Positions 49,456 to 50,930 of a DNA stretch of 64,000 bases are shown one piece after another. The first letter of the stretch is position 1. Each line of letters opens with the position of its first letter. Origin of the DNA: Candidatus Bathyarchaeota archaeon (GTDB taxonomy: Archaea; Thermoproteota; Bathyarchaeia; TCS64). The notes under the pieces were generated by a model, which did no database searches, was not told where the DNA came from, and saw only the letters and a list, made by a program, of their open reading frames with translations. The DNA lies in contig CP070784.1 in assembly GCA_020346605.1 (NCBI GenBank), forward strand, positions 511,804 to 575,803, read 5' to 3'. Both the position numbers and the translations under genes were made by a program.

Positions 49456-50145
49456 CTACTGACCTCTCGAGACGATTATCGTCATGGTTGCATATTGGAT
49501 GTTCCAGGACCAGTCCTGAGTGGGGTCCCTGATGTTGTGGTACCACTCCAGTTGGAATTCATAATCGCCTGCTTCGGTCAGCTCGACAACGGCGTGGAAA
49601 TTGAACTGCCGTGTACCTCTGTTCCCCTCCTCGATGTAGTGTCTGAACCTGGTCCAGTCCGTTTTCCCCTCCTTCCTGTACTTTAGACTCACGTCCTTGG
49701 TGCCCCGTGACTGGAGGGAGATATTGCTTGGCGGGACCACCTGCGCTGTGTAGACGATCACAACGTCCGTGGGTTGAGCGACGGAGATTTGGAGGCCGAT
49801 ATGCGGTATGTCGGAGGGCAGATACGAAGACGTCAACTGCGGATAGAAGTGGTGGCTGTCGGTGACAATCTCTGTGATTCCCGACTCGCCCTGAGGCCCC
49901 TGCTCTCCAGGTTCTCCAGGCGGACCCGGAATATATTCGATCTCGTCGATCTGAGTCTTGAGACCCGATACCTGCTGCCACAGCAGATTGATCTGTTCTG
50001 TGAGGAACTGGATCGCTTCTTCGATTAGGGGTAATCTGCCCTTCGGCTCTTCCTGCGCGGCAAATGCCGGGGCTGACATGAGTACCAAGGCCAGTGTCAT
50101 GGCCACGAATAAAGTCGTTCGGGTTATGTTGTGTTTGTCATTCAA
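49456..50145 (-). CDS. Secreted protein with coiled coil and a collagen-like linker
   Basis: 229 residues from a TTG at 50145 (no ATG in frame at a suitable place); a TATA-like TTTAAATATTATTTAAC lies about 45 bases upstream. A basic N-terminus and hydrophobic core 'TTLFVAMTLALVLMSAPAFA' form a signal peptide with cleavage after AFA. Residues about 35-65 are a heptad-like helix ('IEEAIQFLTEQINLLWQQVS'), then five collagen-like Gly-X-Y triplets (GPPGEPGEQGPQGESG), then a beta-rich domain ('LSLKYRKEGK'-type strands, 'DYEFQLEWYHNIRDPTQDWS'). A trimeric surface protein is suggested. Confidence 0.7.
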   Translation of the reverse strand: MNDKHNITRTTLFVAMTLALVLMSAPAFAAQEEPKGRLPLIEEAIQFLTEQINLLWQQVSGLKTQIDEIEYIPGPPGEPGEQGPQGESGITEIVTDSHHFYPQLTSSYLPSDIPHIGLQISVAQPTDVVIVYTAQVVPPSNISLQSRGTKDVSLKYRKEGKTDWTRFRHYIEEGNRGTRQFNFHAVVELTEAGDYEFQLEWYHNIRDPTQDWSWNIQYATMTIIVSRGQ

Positions 50146-50284
50146 ATCAATCCTATTTCGAACGTAGATGATGGGAATTCTAGTTAAATAATATTTAAAA
50201 TGAATGACATGGGCCCTGTCTCTGCGTTGAACGGAAGTTCCCACTTGAGTAAAGGTTATCAATGACAGCCCGGTTTGAACCCCT

Positions 50285-50587
50285 TGGTCGGTGAGCCGGT
50301 GGGCGGCTGCCGGGCCGCAAGGCCTGAGGAAACTCCATCCACCGCGCAGGACCGCGGCGCCGCGAGGCGCAGGGGGAGACCCCTGGCAACGGACAGAAAC
50401 GACACCTCCCGTGGCACGCAGTGACGCCTTGGAGGCCGAGGACGCCACGGGCCCGGGTGAGACGACCGCCCCAGCGGGGTGAAAGGGCGAATAGGGGTCC
50501 GACGACCACCTGCGGGAGGACCCGGGTAGCCCGCTTAGCTAAATGCCGCCACGAACAGGAGATGGGTTACGGCCGGCACACCGACCA
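50285..50587 (+). ncRNA. rnpB: RNase P RNA, archaeal type A
   Basis: P1 is a perfect helix, TGGTCGGTG (50285-50293) with CACCGACCA (50579-50587). Conserved regions: CR-I-like 'GCCTGAGGAAACTCC', CR-V-like 'GGACAGAAACGACACC', 'GAAAGGGCGAATAGG', and the 3' block 'GCCCGCTTAGCTAAATGCCG' and 'GAACAGGAGATGGGTTACGG'. Together they form the catalytic core of tRNA 5' maturation. Length about 303. Confidence 0.93.
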
Positions 50588-50666
50588 GCTGTATTAGCGT
50601 ATGATCAAGCAACTTCACACGTGTTCGAAGAGTTTATTATCCCCGTGCTCTACGAAGAGGATCACA

Positions 50667-50930
50667 TTGGAAGAGAGCGCAGTCAACGCCTTCAGGATAC
50701 TTGTTCTCAGCGTGTTCATGGCGATGATGGGCCTCGGGATCATATCCCCGATGCGCGCGCGCGCCGGGTCGACCGTGGGCGTGTTTAACACAGCCATGAG
50801 CTTGGGCCAGATAGTTGGCCCCGTCTTCACAGGATTCCTCCTGGACAACTACGGCATGGGAGCCGTTTTCAACTTCGCCGGCGCCATAGGAGTTGTCAGC
50901 TTGGCGGCGTTCTACCTCATGTCCAGATAA
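50667..50930 (+). pseudogene. MFS transporter remnant with an internal deletion
   Basis: From a TTG at 50667, 'NAFRILVLSVFMAMMGLGII' is the start of a first MFS helix, then at the alternating CG stretch 50753-50765 the frame continues directly as 'GSTVGVFNTAMSLGQIVGPV' and 'FTGFLLDNYGMGAVFNFAGA', which is the helix 11-12 end of an MFS protein. About 300 residues in between are missing. Translation would give an 87-residue fragment. Confidence 0.7.

Follow-up and report, generated by a model that had tools for sequence, protein, structure and literature searches.

A small secreted archaeal protein with a five-triplet collagen-like segment and a predicted TNF/C1q-like head

Introduction

The C1q-domain assemblies of complement are animal heterotrimers in which collagen is combined with a trimeric jelly-roll head, and the domains of the lectins PLTL and BC2L-C (its N-domain) that have been solved are not known to be carried on a collagen stalk. 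In spore proteins of the BclA type, collagen is paired with a C-terminal C1q-like head that is presumed to be adhesive (PMC11952670). TNF-like proteins are usually trimers, and sugar-binding lectins of the PLTL type form trimers or hexamers, as stated in PMC12914763. Streptococcal proteins of the Scl type carry a non-collagenous trimerising segment beside their Gly-X-Y repeats (PMC8968730). A survey of proteomes from 2014, with 18 archaea in its sample, described collagen segments as practically confined to Metazoa (PMC5302728), and in 2015 the archaeal share of Pfam's collagen family was counted as 14 entries (PMC4565658). In 2026, the proteome of an archaeon that oxidises ammonia was reported to include a collagen-like adhesin (PMC13037477). 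In the literature outside subscription journals, we found no paper on archaeal C1q/TNF-like heads on collagen stalks.

The gene described here lies on the minus strand at 49456..50145 of the window, by which we mean the whole stretch of 64,000 nucleotides of Candidatus Bathyarchaeota archaeon DNA that was analysed (contig CP070784.1, positions 511,804 to 575,803). Its product of 229 residues resembles BclA and F-BclA of Bacillus in having a collagen-like stalk followed by a predicted C1q/TNF-like head at the C-terminus; however, the spore proteins have long stalks and spore-specific N-termini, whereas the archaeal protein starts with a putative signal peptide and has only five triplets behind a coiled coil. 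The likeness to Scl-type proteins lies in the probable trimerising segment that adjoins the Gly-X-Y repeats without being collagenous, but the Scl-type proteins have 50-79 triplets and a cell-wall anchor. With complement C1q the archaeal protein would share the combination of collagen and trimeric jelly-roll head, provided that it forms the trimer proposed below.

Results

The reading frame begins with a TTG codon at 50145 and ends with a TAG codon that is included in the coordinates, and its GC content by codon position (0.54/0.39/0.69) shows the pattern of coding DNA. A TATA-like element, TTTAAATATTATTTAA (50184..50199, minus strand), is located 39-54 nt upstream of the start codon, where it may function as part of the promoter. 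The third-position GC of 0.69 is lower than that of five neighbouring genes (0.81-0.89), which suggests that the gene is young or acquired. An archaeal RNase P RNA (50291-50581, 180.7 bits) adjoins the gene on the opposite strand and supports the archaeal origin that had been assumed in the original prediction. Beyond the RNase P RNA is an FtsX-type permease gene, and the genes on the other flank are of the HD-domain and glyoxalase-like types; nothing virus-like, virion genes included, was found among the genes surrounding 49456-50145. A 109-residue ORF downstream of the RNase P RNA (50601-50930, plus strand), which by eye resembles the C-terminus of MFS transporters, is perhaps a gene remnant. 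The genome itself is a single contig of 2.30 Mb with an estimated completeness of 92.8% and 6% contamination. Archaeal ammonia monooxygenase was present in four of six genomes tested in the phylum, all four in two other families, and was absent from this genome; its occurrence identifies the phylum as Thermoproteota in the GTDB taxonomy.

The N-terminal half of the protein consists of three segments, all given in minus-strand coordinates. Read by eye, the translation shows a likely signal peptide at residues 1-29 (50059..50145) with the site AFA|A. After a short spacer, residues 41-69 (49939..50025) form a putative coiled coil, in which hydrophobic residues at positions 41, 45, 48, 52, 55, 59, 62, 66, and 69 (I I L I L V L I I) follow an unbroken 4-3 spacing. 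The longest hydrophobic run with this spacing in the mature protein comprises 10 positions, a length reached by 0.025% of 20,000 shuffles when I, L, V, M, and F were counted and by 0.145% of 20,000 when A and W were counted as well. The collagen-like segment, residues 74-89 (49879..49926, GPPGEPGEQGPQGESG), is made up of the five triplets GPP, GEP, GEQ, GPQ, and GES and a closing glycine. When the mature protein was shuffled 100,000 times, six glycines at a period of three never recurred. The window contains 501 stop-to-stop frames with 60 or more codons, and the segment is the only run of five or more glycines at that period in any of them. The Pfam Collagen model PF01391 gave 13.3 bits on these residues, below its cut-off of 27.2, because five triplets are very few, and PHROG tail-fibre families matched the stretch weakly (best E 0.017). 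The segment stands directly N-terminal to the head, which starts at residue 90, and this is the layout of BclA- and C1q-type proteins. Thus, the signal peptide, the coiled coil, and the five triplets that had been claimed for this protein were all recovered, and the claimed beta domain reappeared as eight strands in both of the head models described below.

The C-terminal head (residues 90-229, 49459..49878, minus strand) was modelled with AlphaFold2 as 140 residues, from its own sequence only, with neither the collagen segment nor homologues in the input. The resulting model is an eight-stranded jelly roll (pLDDT 65.5, pTM 0.62) that in fold searches (Foldseek, VIA-align 2) aligned with BC2L-CN (Z 10.3, 123 residues, rmsd 3.1), with PLTL (Z 10.3, 124 residues, rmsd 3.0), and with the birnavirus capsid protein IBDV VP2 (Z 11.3). 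A second AlphaFold2 model was built from an alignment of the head with eight viral fibre-like heads, reached via an archaeal head family (see below) and only 7-18% identical to the query; its scores were higher than those of the head alone (pLDDT 78.1, pTM 0.73). Against this model the TNF-like fucose-binding lectins BC2L-CN and PLTL gave Z scores of 12.1-12.7, as exemplified by PLTL 9ib7_C (Z 12.7, rmsd 2.7, 124 aligned of 133) and the BC2L-C N-domain 2wq4_C (Z 12.4, rmsd 2.7, 123 of 131), which makes these lectins the closest solved folds over the whole predicted head. Further matches were Chlamydia Pgp3 (Z 11.3), the capsid jelly roll of IBDV VP2 (Z 11.1), BxpB (Z 10.4), a BclA-type spore glycoprotein of B. 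anthracis (3twi_A, Z 9.9, 110 of 136), C1q (1pk6_B, Z 9.6, 112 of 132), and the tip of F-BclA (9h38_M, Z 9.4, 106 of 135), and TNF was also matched, ranking after the lectins. Models that lack a clear match typically peak at Z 7-8 in such searches, and the rows for the head exceed that value. Phage fibre and tail proteins were likewise among the fold matches, and viral predicted structures bearing collagen-like names were among the best of them.

As predicted, then, the head is an eight-stranded jelly roll, in agreement with the eight or more strands over about 120-150 residues that we took to define a TNF/C1q-like domain. The matches of the model to TNF/C1q-type proteins, BclA included, and to phage fibre and tail proteins agree with the likeness to bacterial collagen-like and phage trimer proteins that had been proposed for this gene. 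Because IBDV VP2 scores nearly as high, the fold alone does not give the function. In the fold lists, enzyme folds never outranked the TNF/C1q and viral jelly-roll matches, an observation that does not prove their absence. In searches of curated families, no C1q, TNF, or BclA_C match was obtained with the whole protein at E<=10 or with the head at E<=1, and no curated family of any kind matched the head. The talin and malic-enzyme rows of a sequence search of the PDB were set aside (E 0.22 or worse).

When the whole protein was used as a query against 101 genomes (its own and 100 of its kin), the only match at E<=1e-3 was in its own genome. In the class as a whole, matches at E<=1 occurred in 18 genomes out of 256, all weak except that of the genome itself and several of them to other collagen segments; no orthologue was found in the 255 other genomes. 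Of these class matches, L060, L061, L062, L063, and L067 look like chance hits on inspection. The two further genomes of the genus (58% and 74% complete) likewise gave no match. In 84,980 species genomes, a pattern scan detected no true relative, and its single match, in Acidobacteria (L002), was rejected as a shared KEGKTDWT stretch inside an unrelated protein of 134 residues, which we take to be EVE-like. The same type of scan found zero relatives on viral contigs. In a synteny check, RNase P was matched in 19 of 27 family genomes; no positional homologue was seen beside it, and the adjoining gene varies between genera among the neighbours listed.

The closest stalk was found in the same genome, in a collagen-like paralogue (L003:1138-1725, minus strand) with a coiled coil, a long collagen segment, and a C-terminal domain. 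The two proteins match at 50% over 36 residues across the junction of coiled coil and collagen, where they have in common an IPGPxGPPGEPG-like sequence that in the paralogue leads into the long collagen segment. A TGA codon interrupts the frame of the paralogue, for which no start codon in frame is convincing; either the gene has decayed or the assembly is in error. Another protein, L058, has a coiled coil and collagen similar to those of the collagen-head protein.

A weak match of the head to a second archaeal protein, L065 (26% over 90 residues), opened the way to the archaeal head family mentioned above, which we call A3. The L065 head as a query matched 29 of 256 class genomes at E<=0.1. 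A profile of 14 A3 members, from which both L065 and the collagen-head protein were left out, matched 102 of the 256 at E<=1 and, by a hand count among the matches listed, at least 31 genomes at E<=1e-3, 13 of which had supplied rows of the profile. No convincing relative of A3 was found in the PDB or Pfam. Among 32 distinct proteins with A3-type heads, the stalk, judged by pattern and by eye, was collagen of 6-17 triplets in 12, 'KIA'-type repeats in 10, and a coiled coil in three, the remaining seven being fragments or unassignable. The 'KIADGAIT/SAKILDGT' repeat stalks were observed under the A3 heads of L065, L076, L077, L080, L081, and others, and PHROGs of phage tail fibres match such repeats (for L065 with E 5.1e-27). 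In L079, L085, and L086, the A3 heads are on coiled coils preceded by a stretch such as DTNDDGIINYQD, which is presumably dockerin-like.

The A3 proteins (L065, L059, L082, L134, and others) are like the collagen-head protein in belonging to the same archaeal class, in having a C-terminal head after a trimer-type stalk, and in their recurrent use of collagen; in contrast to it, many members have N-terminal membrane segments by eye, and proteins of the L057, L059, and L065 type keep an N-terminal hydrophobic segment, also by eye. Against a profile that included L065, the head of the collagen-head protein scored 9.4 bits, compared with 5.1 for the best of 300 shuffles. The A3 profile failed to recover the protein in its own genome at E<=1, and hhalign of the head with A3 gave a probability of 1.1% (P 0.048); on these two results membership in the family was rejected, and our claim is of a shared fold, not of membership. 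We also observed collagen segments together with the same type of head in L110:4545-6191 (plus strand) and L111:4221-6974 (plus strand), on viral contigs of 240 and 436 kb.

Collagen-like segments had been described as rare in archaea in the original prediction. This is wrong for the phylum under study: of the 398 genomes searched, 91 had a PF01391 match at E<=0.01, and in 83 the score passed the cut-off. Within the family, 11 of 27 genomes had a match at E<=0.1 and seven had one over the cut-off, and the genome itself matched at four other places, one of them weakly and probably spuriously. The occurrence of several collagen-stalked proteins in the lineage implies that such stalks are less rare in archaea than had been claimed, and the phylum sample holds many more archaeal collagen segments than the published counts cited above.

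Discussion

The explanation that we favour, and hold to be reasonably probable, is that the product is secreted and assembles into a small homotrimer of C1q/BclA type, whose heads probably bind a glycan or a surface ligand. The segments are seen in the sequence and the head fold is predicted; from these we infer that three chains associate, that their triplets form a triple helix, where the protein is located once secreted, and that it binds a ligand. The signal peptide would export the chain, after which residues 41-69 of three chains, with I, L, or V at every listed core position, could zip into a parallel coiled-coil trimer; this would bring the five triplets of each chain into register for a short collagen triple helix. 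This helix would hold three TNF/C1q-like jelly-roll heads together at its far end, and the head trimer would in turn close the helix there; clamped at both ends, five triplets may suffice. With three equal sites, the head trimer might act as a multivalent, lectin- or adhesin-like module for an extracellular glycan or surface ligand, and this type of target appears the likeliest because the closest folds are sugar-binding lectins. As to the trimeric stalk at the cell surface that had been suggested, the trimeric stalk is a sound deduction from the coiled coil, the triplets, and the head, but attachment to the surface does not follow, as the signal peptide looks cleavable and no membrane anchor is seen in the protein. 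Since no anchor is seen, it may be freely released, or partners may retain it.

What speaks against this explanation is that five triplets alone may not form a stable triple helix, that the head matches no curated family and is close to A3 only weakly by sequence, and that the better of the two head models depends on an alignment of low identity. The coiled coil could by itself hold a trimer of jelly rolls, the Gly-Pro stretch being a short flexible or polyproline-type linker with no working triple helix. The small number of triplets and the PF01391 score far under the cut-off are in keeping with such a linker, as is the fact that class proteins of similar build carry 6-17 triplets while many A3 heads use altogether different stalks; we nevertheless consider it unlikely, given a strict glycine at every third residue, P or E at X and P, Q, or S at Y, a position between two segments that are both likely to form trimers, and a similar junction in the paralogue L003 that leads into long collagen.

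The occurrence of the same head type on viral tail and fibre-like proteins, together with the weak PHROG matches of the collagen stretch, raises the question of whether the gene is a phage tail-fibre or virion gene that was left behind or domesticated. This origin, already weakened, is highly improbable in our judgment: the gene has its own signal peptide and TATA-like element, its neighbours (the HD-domain gene, the RNase P RNA, and the FtsX-type permease gene) are not those of a phage, and the pattern scan yielded no relative on any viral contig. An intact frame that encodes a signal peptide, an unbroken array of heptads, and, by prediction, a foldable head is likewise not what one would expect of a lineage-specific gene that has no kept function and is decaying like its paralogue. 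To that extent decay is improbable, even though it would account for the lack of a match in the two incomplete genomes of the genus, for a third-position GC under that of the neighbours, and for the in-frame TGA and missing start of the paralogue.

If the secreted-homotrimer explanation is correct, the collagen-plus-jelly-roll design of complement C1q and of Bacillus spores would also exist in archaea, in several stalk versions, and a natural collagen of five triplets clamped by two trimerising domains would offer a convenient minimal system for the study of triple helices. More tentatively, and with doubt outweighing confidence, one could envisage that short collagen helices are a general extracellular mounting device of the lineage, in which trimeric C1q/TNF-like heads and, within the same family, multihaem cytochromes are placed on swapped collagen, 'KIA', or coiled-coil stalks; the collagen-head protein would then be a minimal released form, a soluble C1q-like lectin. 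The cytochromes in question are multihaem c-type proteins in which an N-terminal hydrophobic segment is followed by 9-13 Gly-X-Y triplets (L155:7030-9243, minus strand; L156:7044-8084, plus strand; L145, L146, L147, L149, and L154). Two are encoded in the same genome as the collagen-head gene, and the other five come from four further genomes of its family; the stretches read contain at least 3-8 CxxCH motifs. The protein L004 weakly matches the MtrC/MtrF domain model. Cytochromes on a collagen-type stalk may be trimeric electron conduits at the cell surface, and our literature search found no paper on collagen-stalked multihaem cytochromes. Hydrophobic N-terminal segments also occur in short proteins of the same family (L141, L143, L144, and L151), which have 18-25 triplets and different domains at the C-terminus.
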